A stretch of 56,527 nucleotides of DNA from contig DXAK01000046.1 in assembly GCA_019117065.1 (NCBI GenBank), positions 1-56,527 on the forward strand. Reading direction: 5' to 3'. Position 1 is the first letter of the stretch. Every line of letters starts with the position of its first letter. Under the pieces are notes generated by a model that saw nothing but the letters and a program-made list of their open reading frames with translations, was not told the DNA's origin and did no database searches. Origin of the DNA: Candidatus Mediterraneibacter pullicola (GTDB lineage Bacteria > Bacillota > Clostridia > Lachnospirales > Lachnospiraceae). Shown here in pieces: positions 11,195-18,837 of the stretch. Position numbers and translations under genes: made by a program.

Positions 11195-11316
11195 GCGCGC
11201 GGATCAGCTCGTGAAAGGATCAGGGAAAAATGCGAAGCTCTGTATAATCAGAGACAAATAGGGCAATATAACCATAGTAAAATGTTGTCTTCTGGCAGAA
11301 AAGGAGAACAGTGGCT

Positions 11317-12684
11317 ATGGTAGAAAAAAACACGAAAAAGCTTAGCGCTTCTTTTGAAGAAAATATCAGATATATGAATGAAATCCTTCCGGTGAAAGAA
11401 AGCTTTGATATCATCCGGCGGGAAATGGAGATCGGGGGAAAGGCGTCCGTGTTCTATTACATTGACGGATTCATCAAGGATGAGGCAATGTTGAAGATCA
11501 TGGATTCCTTTCTTTCTGTGTCTGAAAAGGATATGCCGGAGGATGCGGAAGGTTTTATACAGAAAAACGTGCCCTATGTTGAGGTGGACATACTGGAAGA
11601 TTTTGACCAGGTCATAAGAAATGTCCTCTCAGGTCCGGCGGTGCTTTTTATTGACGGTTACAAAGAGTGTATCGCTATCGACTGCCGTACTTATCCTGCC
11701 CGGAGCGTGGATGAACCGGATAAGGACCGATCCCTGCGCGGCTCCCGCGATGGTTTCGTCGAGACAATCGTGTTCAATACGGCGCTTATGCGGCGGAGGA
11801 TCCGAGACCCCCATCTCGTGATGGAGATGACAGAGGCAGGCCAGACGTCCCGCACGGATATCGCCCTGTGCTATATGCAGGACAGGGTAGACACAGAGCT
11901 TTTAAAAAATCTGAAGAACCGGATAGAAAGCCTTCAGGTTGACGACCTGAGGATGAATCAGCAGAGTCTTGCCGAGGCCCTGTTCAAAAGAAAATGGTTC
12001 AACCCATTTCCCAAATTCAAGTTTACGGAGCGCCCGGATACTGCCGCGGCATGTCTCCTCGAGGGGAAGGTTGTAATTCTGGTAGACAATTCACCCTCAG
12101 CCATGATCCTGCCCACTTCTATCTTAGACATGATCGAGGAGGCAAATGATTATTACTTCCCAACTGTGACGGCTGTATATCTAAAGGTGACAAGAGCGCT
12201 GATCACCATTGCCACAGTGTTTTTTACGCCGCTGTACTTGCTGTTTATGCAGAATGAGGAATGGCTGCCCGAGGCGTTTGCCTTCGTCACTGTTCAGGAC
12301 ACGGTGAACATCCCGCTTATCTTCCAGTTCCTCCTGCTGGAGTTGTCCATTGACGGTTTAAGACTTGCGGCAATGAACACGCCTACCATGCTAAGCACGC
12401 CTCTGAGTGTGATCGCAGGTATTGTCATGGGAGAGTTCTCCGTGCAGTCGGGGTGGTTTAACTCCGAGGTGATGCTATACATGGCATTCGTGGCAGTGGC
12501 AAACTATACCCAGCCCAACTTTGAGCTTGGCTACGCCCTGAAATTTATGCGGCTGATGCTGTTGATCCTTACGGCAGTCTTTGATCTTTATGGATTCATC
12601 GCAGGATGCATCCTTGTACTCTGCTTCCTGATCTTTAACAAGACATTGTCAGGGCGCAATTATATGAATGTGAAGCTGAACTGA
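11317..12684 (+). CDS. Spore germination protein, GerA/SpoVAF family
   Basis: A protein of about 455 residues with the GerA-type soluble N-terminal half (SFDIIRREMEIGGKASVFYY; RRIRDPHLVMEMTEAGQTSRTD) and a C-terminal half with four to six membrane helices including LELSIDGLRLAAMNTP. This is the A-subunit fold of germinant receptors; the short C-terminus and the lack of GerB/GerC partners nearby fit SpoVAF better than a receptor subunit. AAGGAG at 11301-11306 is 10 bases from the ATG at 11317 and 4 from a GTG at 11311, so the start is uncertain by two codons. It implies a spore-former. Confidence 0.87.
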   Translation: MVEKNTKKLSASFEENIRYMNEILPVKESFDIIRREMEIGGKASVFYYIDGFIKDEAMLKIMDSFLSVSEKDMPEDAEGFIQKNVPYVEVDILEDFDQVIRNVLSGPAVLFIDGYKECIAIDCRTYPARSVDEPDKDRSLRGSRDGFVETIVFNTALMRRRIRDPHLVMEMTEAGQTSRTDIALCYMQDRVDTELLKNLKNRIESLQVDDLRMNQQSLAEALFKRKWFNPFPKFKFTERPDTAAACLLEGKVVILVDNSPSAMILPTSILDMIEEANDYYFPTVTAVYLKVTRALITIATVFFTPLYLLFMQNEEWLPEAFAFVTVQDTVNIPLIFQFLLLELSIDGLRLAAMNTPTMLSTPLSVIAGIVMGEFSVQSGWFNSEVMLYMAFVAVANYTQPNFELGYALKFMRLMLLILTAVFDLYGFIAGCILVLCFLIFNKTLSGRNYMNVKLN

Positions 12685-12690
12685 CAGCAG

Positions 12691-12731
12691 TCCCTCTCCG
12701 GCAGTTTTCGAATACCGGGGAGGGATTTTTA
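12691..12731 (+). terminator. Intrinsic terminator of the SpoVAF-like gene
   Basis: TCCCTCTCCGG at 12691-12701 pairs with CCGGGGAGGGA at 12715-12725, followed by TTTTT. It insulates the catabolic operon from upstream transcription. Confidence 0.9.
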
Positions 12732-12776
12732 TTGTACATTGACGTTATAAAAACAGGGGATTTGACAGCTCTGAAA

Positions 12777-12815
12777 TTATTCGGTATTATCGAATAAAGA
12801 TTCGGTAATGACGAA
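12777..12815. promoter_or_regulatory. Tandem palindromic operators upstream of the iclR-type gene
   Basis: A perfect inverted repeat TTATTCG-N7-CGAATAA spans 12777-12797. A second, shorter copy TTCG-N7-CGAA spans 12801-12815. The two TTCG elements start 21 bp apart, close to two helical turns, as expected for cooperative dimer binding. IclR proteins often bind tandem palindromes at their own promoter, so this is a probable autoregulatory site (inference). Confidence 0.6.
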
Positions 12816-12824
12816 CAACTAGTA

Positions 12825-12853
12825 TTGTCACTCAAAAATGAGTGTGATATATT
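12825..12853 (+). promoter_or_regulatory. Promoter of the catechol operon, with palindrome inside the spacer
   Basis: TTGTCA at 12825-12830 and TATATT at 12848-12853 are 17 bp apart. The spacer overlaps a perfect CACTCA-AAAA-TGAGTG palindrome at 12829-12844, a likely repressor site or cruciform. Confidence 0.6.
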
Positions 12854-12879
12854 CAAAACATAACAAAGGAGAGATACAT

Positions 12880-13680
12880 ATGAAGAAAGACCAGCCTGTT
12901 AAGACCGGCAGCTCACACATTAAATCAGTGGAACGGGCGATTTTGCTGCTCGAGGCGCTTGCTCAGGAGGATACAGAAATGTCTCTGTCTCAACTCTCAC
13001 AGAAGTTGGGCTGGCCAAAGAGCACAGTCCACGGACTGCTGGCTACCCTCCGTGATTACCACTACGTTGACCAGTCTATGGAGAACAGCAGTTACCGGCT
13101 AGGGACCCGGCTCTTTGAGTTGGGGAACCGGGTGGCTCGCTCTTGGGTCATAAAGGATGCGGCACGTCCGGTGATGCTAAGGCTTGTCAAAGAATTTGGG
13201 GAGACCGTCCAGCTTGGCACGGAGGACGACGGCGAGATCCTCTATCTGGACAAACTGGTGGCAAACTCGGTTGTCAGCATCATGTCTGAGGTAGGCGTCC
13301 GGCTCCCGATGCATTGCAGCGGCCTTGGCAAGGTGCTGCTGGCGCAGAAAAGCCCGGCACAGCTTAAACGCATCATTGCCCGCAAAGGACTTCCGGCAAT
13401 GACCAAACGCACGATCACAACACAGGCAAAGCTTGAGAAGGAACTGGAGAGGGTCAGGGAAAACGGTTATGCCATAGACGATGGAGAGATCATGGACGGT
13501 CTGCGGTGCGTGGCAGTTCCCATATGGGACGGAACCGGGAAGGTCCGTTACGCGCTCAGTATTTCTGGGCAGGCCCGCAACATCTACGGCGACCGGCTTG
13601 AGCATATTATCGACGGACTCAAACAGGCGGCAGAGGAAATCTCCTATGCTATGGGCAGCCGCAGAAATGAGTATCAATGA
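12880..13680 (+). CDS. IclR-family transcriptional regulator
   Basis: A 266-residue regulator with an N-terminal winged helix (about residues 14-70; LSQLSQKLGWPKSTVHGLL) and the IclR effector domain (about 85-255; LPMHCSGLGKVLLA, GYAIDDGEIMDGLRCVAVPI). IclR proteins commonly control aromatic catabolism. AAAGGAGAG lies before the ATG at 12880; an earlier in-frame ATG at 12838 falls within the promoter and is rejected. It is the first gene of the catechol operon and the likely ligand-dependent controller of it. The effector is probably an aromatic compound or ring-cleavage product (inference). Confidence 0.93.
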   Translation: MKKDQPVKTGSSHIKSVERAILLLEALAQEDTEMSLSQLSQKLGWPKSTVHGLLATLRDYHYVDQSMENSSYRLGTRLFELGNRVARSWVIKDAARPVMLRLVKEFGETVQLGTEDDGEILYLDKLVANSVVSIMSEVGVRLPMHCSGLGKVLLAQKSPAQLKRIIARKGLPAMTKRTITTQAKLEKELERVRENGYAIDDGEIMDGLRCVAVPIWDGTGKVRYALSISGQARNIYGDRLEHIIDGLKQAAEEISYAMGSRRNEYQ

Positions 13681-13749
13681 TAGAACAGCCCATTTCCGGG
13701 CGAAACCATACAGGTTAAAACATAATAAAAAGAAAAGGAGAGATGAATT

Positions 13750-14580
13750 ATGGAACAGAAAAGACCTGAAATCGCAAACAGTATTCAGACAGGAGCATTC
13801 AAGACCAATTATCATGATCTTGGGAAAGGATTCCCGGTGGTATTTTTGCACGGCTCCGGTCCCGGAGTCACCGCATGGGCGAACTGGAACAAAGTGTTTC
13901 CTCTTATGCAGGATGATTTCCGCCTGATCGCTCCGGACATGGTAGGATTTGGATATACCGAGCGGGTTGAGGGACAGGTTTACAACATGAATGTGTGGGT
14001 GCAGCAGACCATTGACCTCTTTGATGCGCTTGGCATTGAGAAGGCAAATCTGGTAGGAAATTCTTTTGGCGGAGCGCTGGCGCTCTCCATGGCGGTCCAA
14101 TACCCGGAGCGTGTCAACAAGCTTGTGTGCATGGGCGCCATGGGCGTGAGCTTCCCCATTACTTATGGGCTTGATCAGGTGTGGGGTTACACTCCGTCGC
14201 CTTCAAATATGGCGAAACTGCTGGAAATCTTTACATATGATCATTCCTTTGCCACACCAGAGCTGGCAGAATCCCGCTATCAGGGAAGTATACAGCCCGG
14301 TTTCCAGGAAAGTTTTTCCCAGATGTTCCCGGTTCCCCGGCAGAACGGCGTGGAGGATATGGCAGGCAATCAGCAGTATATCCGTGACATCCCTCATGAG
14401 ACACTTATCATCCATGGCAGGGAGGACCGGGTGATCCCGCTGAGCAACTCGTATAAGCTTTTGGAGCTCATCCCAAATGCGGAACTGCATGTATTCGGAA
14501 AGTGCGGACACTGGTCACAGATTGAGCGCACTCAGGACTTTGCGGATCAGCTCCTGTGGTTCTTTAAACGTTCCCGATAA
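13750..14580 (+). CDS. Alpha/beta hydrolase, meta-cleavage product (2-hydroxymuconic semialdehyde-type) hydrolase
   Basis: A 276-residue alpha/beta hydrolase with oxyanion loop HGSGPGVTAW (residues 34-43), nucleophile Ser105 in GNSFGG, acid Asp226 (HGREDRV) and His254 (GKCGHW). The HGSGPG loop and overall pattern match DmpD/XylF/TodF/BphD-type C-C hydrolases, which cleave ring-fission products into 2-oxopent-4-enoate and an acid. Position between the regulator and a 2-oxopent-4-enoate hydratase supports this. No semialdehyde dehydrogenase, tautomerase or decarboxylase is in the operon, so the hydrolytic branch is used, as for 3-substituted catechols. Confidence 0.9.
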   Translation: MEQKRPEIANSIQTGAFKTNYHDLGKGFPVVFLHGSGPGVTAWANWNKVFPLMQDDFRLIAPDMVGFGYTERVEGQVYNMNVWVQQTIDLFDALGIEKANLVGNSFGGALALSMAVQYPERVNKLVCMGAMGVSFPITYGLDQVWGYTPSPSNMAKLLEIFTYDHSFATPELAESRYQGSIQPGFQESFSQMFPVPRQNGVEDMAGNQQYIRDIPHETLIIHGREDRVIPLSNSYKLLELIPNAELHVFGKCGHWSQIERTQDFADQLLWFFKRSR

Positions 14581-14654
14581 AAAGAAAGCGCCATGGCGAG
14601 AGGGTATTTCCCCTTCAGCCTGTGGCGGACAGACAGATAGAAGTGAGGTTGCAC

Positions 14655-15434
14655 ATGGAAAATACAAATATACAAAAATATGCGGATATGCTCCGGGAGG
14701 CAGAGGCGTCACGAAAGTCCATCCCTCCCCTGACGGAGACGGACGAAAGCCTTGACATTGATGATGCTTATGCGATCCAGCTTGCCAATGTGGAGCACAC
14801 GGTCAGGGCAGGACATGTAGTTTCAGGCAAAAAGATCGGTCTGACCTCTGAAGGCATCCAGAAGCAGCTTGGGGTAAACGAACCGGATTACGGTCACCTT
14901 TTTGCGGCAATGGAATGTCCCGACGGTATGGTAGAGGCAGATAAGCTTATGCAGCCTAAGATCGAGGGAGAGATCGCCTTTGTGTTAAAAGATGATCTGG
15001 CAGGAGGCAAAGTGACGGCAGAAGATGTGCGCCGTGCTACGGATTATGTGGTAGCAGCTTTTGAGATTGTTGACAGCAGGGTGGCTGACTGGAAGATCAA
15101 ACTGGTAGACACAGTGGCTGACAATGCTTCCTCCGGCAGATATGTGCTGGGAGAGAAGAAGATGTCCCTTGATGAAGTGGACCTGCCCAACGTGCCTATG
15201 ATTCTTACAAAGAACGGTGAGAAGGCGGGAGAAGGCAGAGGCTCCGCGGTACTGGGGGACCCGGCGGAGGCTGTGGCATGGCTTGCCAACAGGCTATGGG
15301 GATACGGCGTGACCCTGAAAAAGGGAGAGGTCATTCTCTCCGGCGCGTTTTCAGCCGCCCCGGAGGCTGGAAAAGGTGATGAGTTCACCGCGGACTTTGG
15401 CCCGATGGGGAAAGTAACGGCAAAATTCGTATAA
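14655..15434 (+). CDS. mhpD: 2-oxopent-4-enoate hydratase (2-keto-4-pentenoate hydratase)
   Basis: A 259-residue member of the fumarylacetoacetase fold. It adds water to 2-oxopent-4-enoate to give 4-hydroxy-2-oxovalerate. Visible family features are SGKKIGLTS, the metal-binding KIEGEIAFVL segment, VAAFEIVDSR, DNASSG and the GEVILSGAFSAA terminus. The ATG at 14655 is 6 bases after GTGAGG; the in-frame ATG at 14622 has no good ribosome site. Length is normal. The next two enzymes use its product. Confidence 0.93.
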   Translation: MENTNIQKYADMLREAEASRKSIPPLTETDESLDIDDAYAIQLANVEHTVRAGHVVSGKKIGLTSEGIQKQLGVNEPDYGHLFAAMECPDGMVEADKLMQPKIEGEIAFVLKDDLAGGKVTAEDVRRATDYVVAAFEIVDSRVADWKIKLVDTVADNASSGRYVLGEKKMSLDEVDLPNVPMILTKNGEKAGEGRGSAVLGDPAEAVAWLANRLWGYGVTLKKGEVILSGAFSAAPEAGKGDEFTADFGPMGKVTAKFV

Positions 15435-15477
15435 AAAATATCATATGAAAATGTGATGGGATAGAGAGGTGGATAGA

Positions 15478-16362
15478 ATGGACAGGATAAAAGTCGCCGT
15501 GATCGGACCGGGTAATATCGGCAGCGATCTGATGTACAAGATATTTCGCAGTAAGTATCTGGAGATGGCAATGATGGCAGGAATCGTAGAATCAGAGGGA
15601 ATCCGCCGTGCCAAATCCAAAGGCGTAAAGACAACGATAGAAGGAGTGGACGGCGTGGTGCGCGAAGATGATATCCGTATTGCCTTTGACGCCACCAGCG
15701 CATCGGCACATCTGAAATTCAACGGACCTAAGTTAAAGGAGAAGGGCATTGTTTCTATTGATTTAACGCCCGCAGCCATTGGTCCCTACTGTGTGCCCGT
15801 GGTCAATCTGGACCAGCTTCAGCAGGAGCCGGACATCAATATGGTGACCTGCGGAGGGCAGGCAACCATCCCTGTGGTGTATGCTGTTTCCCAAGTGGCA
15901 GGAGCTGCTTATGCTGAGATTGTGGCATGTATTTCCAGCAAAAGCGCAGGTCCTGGAACACGCGCCAATATGGACGAGTTTACAGAAACTACCAGCAAGG
16001 CGCTTGAGGTCGTAGGCGGCGCGGACAAGGGGAAGGCAATCATCGTGCTCAATCCTGCGGAGCCTCCCCTTATGATGACCAATACGATCAGTGTCAAAGT
16101 AAAAGATACAAGCGTAGGATTTGACAAGATCCGTGAAGCAATAGAGAAAATGGTAGATGAAGTAAGGACTTACGTCCCGGGATATAAACTGCGCGTTCCT
16201 CCTACCATGGAAGGTGACAGGGTGACTGCCATCGTGCAGGTGGAAGGACAGGCTGACTTCCTTCCGGCTTACAGCGGAAACCTTGACATCATCAATTCGG
16301 CGGCAGTGGCGGCAGCTGAAAAGATTGCGGAGCGTATGCTCAGAGAAGGGAGGAACGGATAA
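15478..16362 (+). CDS. mhpF: Acetaldehyde dehydrogenase (acylating), meta-pathway type
   Basis: A 294-residue enzyme that oxidises acetaldehyde with CoA and NAD+ to acetyl-CoA. It has a Rossmann start ([17 protein letters not shown]), catalytic Cys125 in [10 protein letters not shown], and the C-terminal NLDIINSAA dimer segment typical of DmpF/MhpF/BphJ. Length matches the small type that partners with the aldolase, rather than the AdhE type. GAGAGG precedes the ATG at 15478; an alternative GTG at 15469 is less likely. Its stop overlaps the aldolase start (TAATG), as expected for two subunits that channel acetaldehyde. Confidence 0.95.
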
Positions 16363-17369
16363 TGGCAGAGCGTAAGATTACTTTTGTAGACACTACGATG
16401 CGCGACGGCAGCCATGCTGTGCGCCACAGCTTTACTAAGGAACAGGTGTCACAGATCGCCGCAAGGCTGGACAAATGCGGCGTACCGCTCATTGAACTTT
16501 CTCATGGCGATGGTCTTGGCGGTTCCAGTTATACTTATGGATTCTCCAAGACAGATGAGTTCACTCTGATGGAGGCGGCTGCCAAAGAGATTAAAAACGG
16601 CAGGCTTACTGTTCTGCTTCTGCCGGGCATCGGTACTATTGCCGATCTTAAGCAGGCTAAGGCATGCGGAGCGAAAGCCGTGCGCGTGGCGACGCATGTG
16701 ACAGAGGCTGATGTGAGTGCAGAACATATCTATGCCGCAAAAGAGCTGGACATGATGGCAGTGGGATTTCTGATGATGGTACATACTGCGCCAGTGGAGC
16801 GAATCGTCGAAGAGGCCAAGAAGATGGAAAGCTACGGAGCGGATTACATCAATCTTGCCGATTCTGCAGGTTATCTCATGCCCGAGGATGTGAAGGCGCG
16901 TATCACGGCTGTAAGGGAGGCTGTAAATATTCCGGTGGGATTCCATGCCCACAACAATATGGGACTGGCGATTGCCAACTCACTGATTGCCGTGCAAAGT
17001 GGGGCAGACTTTGTGGACGGTACTCTCCGCGGTCTCGGCGCTGGAGCGGGCAATGCCCAGATTGAGGTGCTGGCTGGAGTTATGAAGCGGAATGGATACG
17101 AGACAGGTTTGGATTTCTATGGGCTTATGGATTTAGCTGCCGAGGTGGTGGAACCGATCATGCTCCGTCCCCAAACCATTGACAACGGTTCCCTCATGCT
17201 GGCATACACAGGGGTGTACTCCAGTTTCCTGCTGCATGTGTATGATGCGGCAAAGAAATACTCACTTGACCCAAGGGATATTCTTGTTGAACTGGGCCGT
17301 CGTAAGATGGTGGGTGGTCAGGAGGACATGATCATAGATGTGGCTTACCAGCTCACACAAAAGGCATAA
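16362..17369 (+). CDS. mhpE: 4-hydroxy-2-oxovalerate aldolase
   Basis: A 335-residue class II aldolase that splits 4-hydroxy-2-oxovalerate into pyruvate and acetaldehyde. The VDTTMRDGSHAVRH motif holds the catalytic Arg-Asp pair and His; the metal-binding His residues lie in FHAHNN (about residue 194). A C-terminal communication domain is present (LMDLAAEVVEP to end). It forms a channelled complex with the acylating acetaldehyde dehydrogenase in characterised systems, consistent with the one-base overlap here. Confidence 0.95.
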   Translation: MAERKITFVDTTMRDGSHAVRHSFTKEQVSQIAARLDKCGVPLIELSHGDGLGGSSYTYGFSKTDEFTLMEAAAKEIKNGRLTVLLLPGIGTIADLKQAKACGAKAVRVATHVTEADVSAEHIYAAKELDMMAVGFLMMVHTAPVERIVEEAKKMESYGADYINLADSAGYLMPEDVKARITAVREAVNIPVGFHAHNNMGLAIANSLIAVQSGADFVDGTLRGLGAGAGNAQIEVLAGVMKRNGYETGLDFYGLMDLAAEVVEPIMLRPQTIDNGSLMLAYTGVYSSFLLHVYDAAKKYSLDPRDILVELGRRKMVGGQEDMIIDVAYQLTQKA

Positions 17370-17390
17370 AAACTGCAGGGGAGCAGAAGG

Positions 17391-17672
17391 ATGAACGATT
17401 ACAGGATCACAGACGGAGCAACAGGCGAAGCTTTTCTCTGTCATTCAGATGAAAATCTGCTGGCAGCGATGCGCCGCTCGGGAAAAGGACCGATAAAGAC
17501 CGGCTGTTTCGGCGGCGGATGCGGAGTGTGCAAAGTCCGCATATCAGACGGCAGATACCATGTGTTTAAGAAGATGAGCAGAGCGCATATCTCACCGGAG
17601 GAGGAAGAGCAAAGCATCGTGCTTGCCTGCTGCGTCAAACCCCTTAGTAACATTACGCTGATCAAAGCGTAA
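17391..17672 (+). CDS. XylT/DmpQ-like plant-type [2Fe-2S] ferredoxin
   Basis: A 93-residue ferredoxin with the cluster ligands Cys39, Cys44, Cys47 and Cys80 (GCFGGGCGVC, then LACC), spacing C-x4-C-x2-C-x32-C. In pseudomonads the small ferredoxin next to catechol 2,3-dioxygenase reduces the inactivated ferric enzyme back to ferrous. Its position directly before the dioxygenase gene implies the same role, and would be meaningful only if the dioxygenase works in oxygen. Length and motif are intact. A partner reductase is not present in the operon. Confidence 0.88.
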   Translation: MNDYRITDGATGEAFLCHSDENLLAAMRRSGKGPIKTGCFGGGCGVCKVRISDGRYHVFKKMSRAHISPEEEEQSIVLACCVKPLSNITLIKA

Positions 17673-17710
17673 TAGATATAACTAAATTTATAACAAAGGA
17701 GGAAACAAAA

Positions 17711-18637
17711 ATGGCACTCAACAAAACTCTACGCCCCGGACTGATTCAAATGAGGGTATTGGATCTGGACCAGACTCTGGATTTCTACACCAACATCCTT
17801 GGTCTTAATGAGGTGGGACGCACCGAGGATGGGCGCGTTATGCTCAAAGGATATGATGAGTTTGATCATCATTCCGTGACCCTTCGTCTGGCTGACGAGG
17901 CAGGCCTTGACTATGTTGCTTTTAAGGTGGATAGTCCCGAGACTCTGGAAAGCCTTAAGGACGCCACAGAAGCATTTGGATATCCGGTAGACGAAGTACC
18001 AGCCAACACGAATCAGCCGGGCTTTGGCAAGCGCTACGGGTTTACTATCTGCACCGGACACCGTATCGAACTCTATGCGGATGTGGAGAAAGCAGAGCAG
18101 GTTCCCATGACACACAACCCTCACCCGTGGGTGGAAGCTCCCCGGGGAATGCGCGCACAGCGTTTTGACCATTGCCTGCTCTACGGACCGAACATTGCAG
18201 AAGCTGAGAGATATTTCACGGAAGTCCTTGGCATGTTTGCACCGGAGGTATGTAATACACCGGAAGGCAACCGATTTGCAACATGGCTTACAAGCGGAAA
18301 CAAGGCTCATGACATTGCATTTGTGGAGTATGAGAAGCCGGGCAAAATCCATCATATGGCATTCCTTCTTCAGGATTGAAATGATATCGGCAATGCGGCG
18401 GACTTTATTGGACGTTACAGCTTAAAGCGTGATGTAGGTCCCACCCGCCATGCCATCACCCGGGGACAGACCATCTACTTCTGGGAGCCCTCCGGCAACC
18501 GTATTGAGACCTATTGCGGCGGATATACGGCATATCCGGACAACCCAGTCCGTGTATGGGATGTATCTGAGGTCGGAAAAGGACTGTTCTACTATGAGGG
18601 AGAACTGATCCCGTCCTTCCTTCAGGTGGTGACCTAG
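17711..18637 (+). pseudogene. Catechol 2,3-dioxygenase (extradiol, XylE type) interrupted by one in-frame TGA
   Basis: An extradiol dioxygenase that opens catechols next to the hydroxyls with O2 and Fe(II). The frame runs 222 codons, meets TGA at 18377-18379, then continues open for 85 codons to TAG at 18635-18637; ignoring the TGA gives 308 residues against 307 for XylE. XylE catalytic residues all recur with a +1 offset: His154, His200 and His215 before the stop; His247, Tyr256 and Glu266 after it. The truncated product lacks the Glu iron ligand and should be inactive. The TGA sits where XylE has Trp (LETWED against LQD-stop-ND), so TGG to TGA is the simplest cause. A strong AAAGGAGG precedes the ATG. 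Confidence 0.9.
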
Positions 18638-18667
18638 TATTAAAAAATGAAAAAATAGGAAGATCCG

Positions 18668-18723
18668 TACCCTGGCAGAGTGACGCGGGAAAATAAACGC
18701 GTCATACTGTCGGGGTATTTTTA
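18668..18723 (+). terminator. Strong terminator of the catechol operon
   Basis: Twenty-base arms at 18668-18687 and 18698-18717 pair with few mismatches around a 10-base loop and are followed by TTTTTAT. It closes the operon about 30 bases after the dioxygenase stop. The DNA from 18724 to 18837 is AT-rich without a gene. Confidence 0.9.
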
Positions 18724-18837
18724 TGGTGTTCCGGAAGTCTGATAGTTTCATTCTTTAAAATAAAACAGTTATTCAAATATTTTTGGAAAGTTTTCATGGA
18801 AAGAAAATATACAAATTCAGGGATTTGTTAAAATATT

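Follow-up and report, generated by a model that had tools for sequence, protein, structure and literature searches.

A catechol 2,3-dioxygenase gene that is interrupted by one in-frame stop codon raises the question of whether the enzyme has been lost, whether the stop is an error of the assembly, or whether the codon is read through. Such a gene is found in Candidatus Mediterraneibacter pullicola, the genome of which is available as a draft of 49 contigs with a completeness of 94.3%. The stretch of DNA analysed here, referred to as the window, comprises 56,527 nucleotides. In it, the open reading frame of the catechol 2,3-dioxygenase (C23O) runs on the forward strand from 17711 to 18379 and closes with a TGA at 18377-18379, which is codon 223. 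Past this TGA the frame remains open until a TAG at 18635-18637, giving 222 + 1 + 85 = 308 codons. The initial annotation had described a single in-frame TGA in an otherwise intact C23O, and this is borne out by the coordinates of the reading frame, by the open frame up to 18637 and by the family profile TIGR03211. Both halves match this profile on their own, the first 222 codons with profile positions 3-216, and the remaining 85 codons together with the TAG (18380-18637, forward strand), which hold His247, Tyr256 and Glu266, with positions 219-303. Read through the TGA, the frame scores 360.5 bits, which is over the cut-off of 320.2, and three intact relatives from the genus score slightly below it (353.9-357.8 bits); the TGA-ended product reaches 234 bits and falls below the cut-off. 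Over the whole genome, the profile yields a single match over the cut-off, with "1 TGA" within. The frame after the stop is not a product of chance, because its 85 codons show protein identities of 100%, 98.8% and 100% to the three relatives. A downstream restart could be dismissed, as no in-frame ATG, GTG or TTG follows the TGA before codon 306. When read through, the protein thus belongs to the catechol 2,3-dioxygenase family and is predicted to cleave catechol with O2.

XylE (PDB 1mpy, 307 residues) aligns with this protein from XylE residue 5 to the end, and the read-through length of 308 against 307 residues that had been given before agrees with the structure entry. The alignment also confirms that the catalytic residues are present at a constant offset of +1, since H153, H199, H214, H246, Y255 and E265 of XylE correspond to H154, H200, H215, H247, Y256 and E266 of the window, the last three of which fall after the stop. 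At the stop itself, XylE reads LETWED and the window LQD(TGA)NDI, so that the TGA indeed takes the place of the XylE tryptophan as proposed. We take H153, H214 and E265 of XylE to be the 2-His-1-Glu metal ligands; the corresponding H154, H215 and E266 are kept in all 27 aligned C23O rows. The active-site tyrosine (Tyr255 in XylE) has a single exception among these rows, which is found in a sister species (genome G016, locus L007), where codon 256 is TGC and encodes cysteine (L034:10967-10969).

For a comparison at the TGA position, 27 named related loci were fetched, 25 of which span it, while L029 and L030 end before. The orthologue check suggested by the initial annotation gave a clear result, as the position is occupied by Trp in all 25 spanning loci and by Cys in none, and an early stop of the frame occurs in none of them. 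Apart from this, the C23O in L018 (1-142) lies at a contig end with its first 30 codons unmatched, and is either cut or broken. Within the genus, C23O is present in 4 of 58 genomes, the window's own counted, and the other three copies (L006, L007 and L016, all from Mediterraneibacter MAGs) are intact with 308 amino acids. In a sample of the family, 3 of 397 genomes have a C23O match at 1e-30, including the window's own and G043. In a sample of the phylum, 5 of 398 genomes exceed the C23O cut-off, and a stop lies inside the window's match only; some of the weaker matches in this sample also contain stops, the best of them being a 112-bit fragment in G666 with one TAA.

The age of the stop can be judged from the differences that are private to the window. 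At codons common to the three other genus copies there are 12 of these, namely 11 synonymous ones and the TGA. If the common codon is assumed to be ancestral, GC-to-AT transitions make up 10 of the 12, the TGA change among them, so the nonsense change is of a common type. Altogether 15 codons of the window C23O differ from each of the three copies. The one private amino acid is a Met in place of Leu216, which adjoins the ligand His215 and precedes the stop; the three relatives have 0, 4 and 4 private amino-acid changes, so the window does not stand out here, and Met216 says little for or against a recent loss. Past the stop there are four private changes, all of them synonymous, for which the chance in an unconstrained sequence would lie between 0.003, with all changes treated alike, and 0.013, with transitions only. 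Over the 85 codons, the three relatives differ from the window by 15, 13 and 10 synonymous and by 0, 1 and 0 nonsynonymous changes, and the single nonsynonymous one is the relative's own Tyr256Cys. The earlier observation that no decay is visible downstream therefore holds. From the intact sequence it follows that the stop arose late on the branch, has little effect or is not real. The stop is very young, or it is a consensus error; an error of this kind, or a stop that is leaky yet useful, would explain the absence of decay just as well.

The consequences of the stop depend on the genes around it. C23O is the last of seven genes on the forward strand, and it is preceded, in this order, by an IclR-family regulator (12838-13680; eight IclR-type models, all under their cut-off), an alpha/beta hydrolase (13750-14580; HsaD and BphD as best models, neither reaching its cut-off), which from its operon context is probably a 2-hydroxymuconic-semialdehyde hydrolase, a 2-oxopent-4-enoate hydratase-like protein of the DmpE type (14622-15434; TIGR03220 with 287.1 bits, below the cut-off of 408.8), an acylating acetaldehyde dehydrogenase of the DmpF/MhpF type (15469-16362; TIGR03215 over cut-off), a 4-hydroxy-2-oxovalerate aldolase of the DmpG/MhpE type (16362-17369; TIGR03217 over cut-off), and a plant-type [2Fe-2S] ferredoxin (Fer2) of 93 amino acids (17391-17672), which is XylT-like by its place directly before C23O. 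These six reading frames are open. Five of them align without gaps to the three relatives over all or all but one residue, with 92.6 to 99.6% identity, and the ferredoxin shows 88 to 92%. Judged by their best models, the seven operon genes include no hydroxylase, 2-hydroxymuconic-semialdehyde dehydrogenase, tautomerase or decarboxylase, and hence only the hydrolytic branch is seen among them. All seven genes occur in 15 of the 27 loci (L006-L013, L016, L020, L022-L025 and L028), seven of which share the gene order of the window (L006-L010, L013 and L016); the other 12 show fewer operon genes, and several of these are short or at contig ends. The 94.3% complete genome yielded neither a second C23O, the family model giving just one more match, of 32 residues and 20 bits, nor a LigB-type extradiol dioxygenase, so that ring cleavage would be lost together with this gene. 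The proposal that the stop decides whether the whole operon works is therefore correct in so far as this is the only C23O found and no LigB-type enzyme accompanies it, but it goes too far for the preceding genes, which the stop should not silence because C23O comes last.

We think it probable, short of firm confidence, that a recent nonsense change private to this genome at the conserved Trp223 codon has truncated the only C23O found, in an otherwise intact meta-cleavage operon. A single change to TGA would make the ribosome end at residue 222. The 222-residue product would lack His247, Tyr256 and Glu266, and it should be inactive because Glu266, judged by XylE, is the third metal ligand. The rest of the protein would not be made from any downstream start, and the other operon proteins would still be produced. 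On this account the TGA base would be real in the living strain, the truncated C23O presumably dead, and catechol cleavage lost.

Three options had been named initially, a recent nonsense mutation, an error and genuine readthrough. The first two are favoured by the open orthologues with Trp and by the lack of decay, whereas the third is weakened by the absence of a dedicated UGA-decoding machinery from what was found in the genome. A lone TGA in an open, conserved frame, and an RF2 gene first reported with "2 TGA" inside, could speak for a selenocysteine codon or for a genome-wide reassignment of UGA to Trp, which we nevertheless regard as extremely improbable. In a sample of 362,559 bases that includes the window, UGA acts as a normal stop and ends 65 of 234 open reading frames of at least 200 amino acids; among 77 TGA-ended sampled genes, C23O is the one whose stop is followed by coding-like sequence that lacks an early start. 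RF2 is over its cut-off and keeps the site CTTTGAC, in a layout that we take to be the programmed frameshift known from RF2. A broken RF2 was rejected on the basis of the three frames and this site, and the TGAs within the match would belong to the part upstream of the site that is out of frame. Both tRNA-Trp genes have the anticodon CCA and an ordinary anticodon stem with at least five pairs drawn, two of the upper ones being G-U, and when the entire assembly was searched for the anticodon loop with at most one mismatch, only the two CCA copies and none with UCA came up. A tRNA-Trp(CCA) with a 4-bp stem reads UGA according to PMC13092985. One 72-base tRNA-Trp (anticodon at 33) seemed to be such a reader and was discarded, since it consists of the body and stem of the other copy with a shorter acceptor end called. 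The genome thus uses UGA as a stop, and neither a tRNA-Trp with UCA nor one with a 4-bp-stem CCA was found in it. As for selenocysteine, selA has no match in the 94.3% complete genome, and none of 10 SelB matches and none of 10 tRNA-Sec matches exceeds the cut-off or the gathering score, respectively. The best SelB match, the one that was inspected, reads as EF-Tu beside EF-G, and in a control the SelB model gave matches in 14 of 14 genomes and exceeded its cut-off in 2. Eight tRNA-Sec match loci were fetched and are ordinary tRNAs, with the anticodon UCA in none. The RNA fold after the TGA is unremarkable (z -1.36; 15 of 200 shuffles fold as well), and the 25 orthologues with Trp rather than Cys at the site also argue against selenocysteine. 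Editing was set aside too; the bacterial A-to-I editing motif is TACG, and this is not present at the TGA.

If the TGA were an error of sequencing or of the consensus, or a minority variant chosen by the assembler, the living strain would have an intact C23O, and the draft state of the assembly as well as the undecayed remainder of the gene accord with this. A further point is that another gene of the genome carries an isolated in-frame stop as well, and this might reflect base errors scattered over the assembly. This second stop emerged from a scan for split genes that covered the window and the first 20,000 bases at most of contigs 1-20, which is not a random sample, and the masking and the thresholds of which were tuned on the C23O case (opposite-strand ORF), so its rate is rough. 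Among 287 genes, 39 have an open same-frame extension of at least 40 codons; in 6 of these the first 20 codons contain no start, and two of these six are coding-like, namely C23O and a TAG-split gene in L063. The latter (L063:4011-9602, reverse strand, contig C12 of the same genome) encodes a long, secreted-looking protein split by the in-frame TAG, part of which, judging from its motif, is presumably PHP-like; L079 and L084, the two that are readable in frame among the seven relatives L078-L084, run on without a stop at that site. Genuine recent losses of genes could, however, also account for two affected genes in 287, and the TGA change shares its GC-to-AT transition type with nine other private C23O differences, all of them synonymous. 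We consider an error rather unlikely, though it has to be taken seriously. As a different explanation, the stop may be leaky, with tRNA-Trp(CCA) misreading UGA often enough to give some full-length C23O and to keep the gene under selection. Since Trp is the residue of the relatives at this position and would be restored by leak-through, a trace of active C23O is plausible, and low-level leak-through is possible. In E. coli reporters, UGA is the leakiest stop and is read mainly as Trp, as reported in PMC11126739, but the same article suspects the K-12 RF2 allele of raising the UGA figures. Similarly, PMC7918605 describes in-frame stops common to bacterial species with a dN/dS below 1, though fairly high, and yet finds such stops to be mostly short-lived. 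The lack of decay downstream would suit a leaky stop, but a very young stop accounts for it as well. A specific signal was not seen, as the base after the C23O TGA is an A, which follows 17 of the 65 TGA stops in the sample, and the anticodon stem of tRNA-Trp is ordinary although two of its upper pairs are G-U; moreover, all 25 other loci spanning the position lack the TGA. That leakage sustains the gene therefore appears improbable to us. More speculative still, and to be given little credence, is the idea that C23O alleles flicker on and off (a leaky UGA here that would lower the enzyme without abolishing it, Tyr256Cys in the sister species), the oxygen-using step being only occasionally useful and the rest of the operon kept.

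With a recent nonsense change as the preferred reading, the stop itself is ordinary and represents the usual kind of gene loss or sequencing error. Of wider interest is the setting: lineages known as anaerobes carry a conserved, patchily distributed meta-cleavage operon that depends on oxygen and includes a ferredoxin gene of its own. As a Mediterraneibacter, the host of the window is presumed to be an anaerobic gut bacterium, and we assume that most of the other C23O-bearing loci also belong to gut or digester anaerobes. Only two record titles name a gut source, goat cecum for L009 and sheep duodenum for L013, and one is suggested for L007 by its species name. In aerobes, an XylT-like ferredoxin reactivates oxidised C23O, and the presence of such a gene hints at a real use of oxygen by a presumed gut anaerobe. 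An otherwise intact operon of this oxygen-using type is fairly unusual for the genus of a presumed anaerobe. A change to C23O in two of the four genus copies hints at a weak need for the enzyme, in a small number of copies of which either change could stem from MAG errors. A literature search on catechol and extradiol dioxygenases in gut or anaerobic bacteria, Lachnospiraceae and Mediterraneibacter gave no report on this operon among the matches listed, which lie mainly outside subscription journals. For human gut metagenomes, catechol ortho-cleavage genes have been reported, 12.5% of them assigned to Firmicutes, and the passages considered name meta-cleavage in general terms only (PMC7946887). 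For annotation, the genome should not be scored as a catechol cleaver without a check of the reads, while sister species with an intact C23O may be.

The history of the gene was approached with a C23O tree of 27 rows, in which the window and three plasmid rows stand beside 23 of the 27 loci, without the partial L018, L029, L030 and L031. The 22 non-Pseudomonadota rows, the window's included, are split from the five Pseudomonadota rows with a branch support of 100/99, and they consist of Bacillota, two Synergistota, two Chloroflexota and one Actinomycetota. Within the genus, a block of about 11.3-18.8 kb (11261-18837), which contains a gerXA-like gene and the operon, is 84-100% identical between species per 500 bases. 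To its left, identity is 69-81%, apart from a value of 88% in the bin containing the edge, and to its right 80-82% in two relatives only, as the contig of the third one ends there. Because the block is more alike than its flanks, these sequences suggest that the gerXA-like gene and the operon may have been exchanged between species as a unit.

In comparison with known systems, the C23O resembles XylE and DmpB (TIGR03211; PDB 1mpy and 3hpv) in length class and in the ligand residues, and it differs from them by the interruption at codon 223. Its best plasmid match has 46% identity over 222 residues, and a search of plasmid DNA at the nucleotide level gave no match. As in the xylT-xylE operons of aerobic Pseudomonadota, a 2Fe-2S protein is encoded directly before C23O, which also holds for all three plasmid loci read, whereas the host of the window is presumed to be anaerobic. 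The stop is similar to the in-frame stops in conserved bacterial genes described by Belinky et al. 2021 (PMC7918605), in that there is one stop with signs of purifying selection on both sides and little or no decay; that study kept stops common to at least two species, whereas the C23O TGA is found in one genome only.
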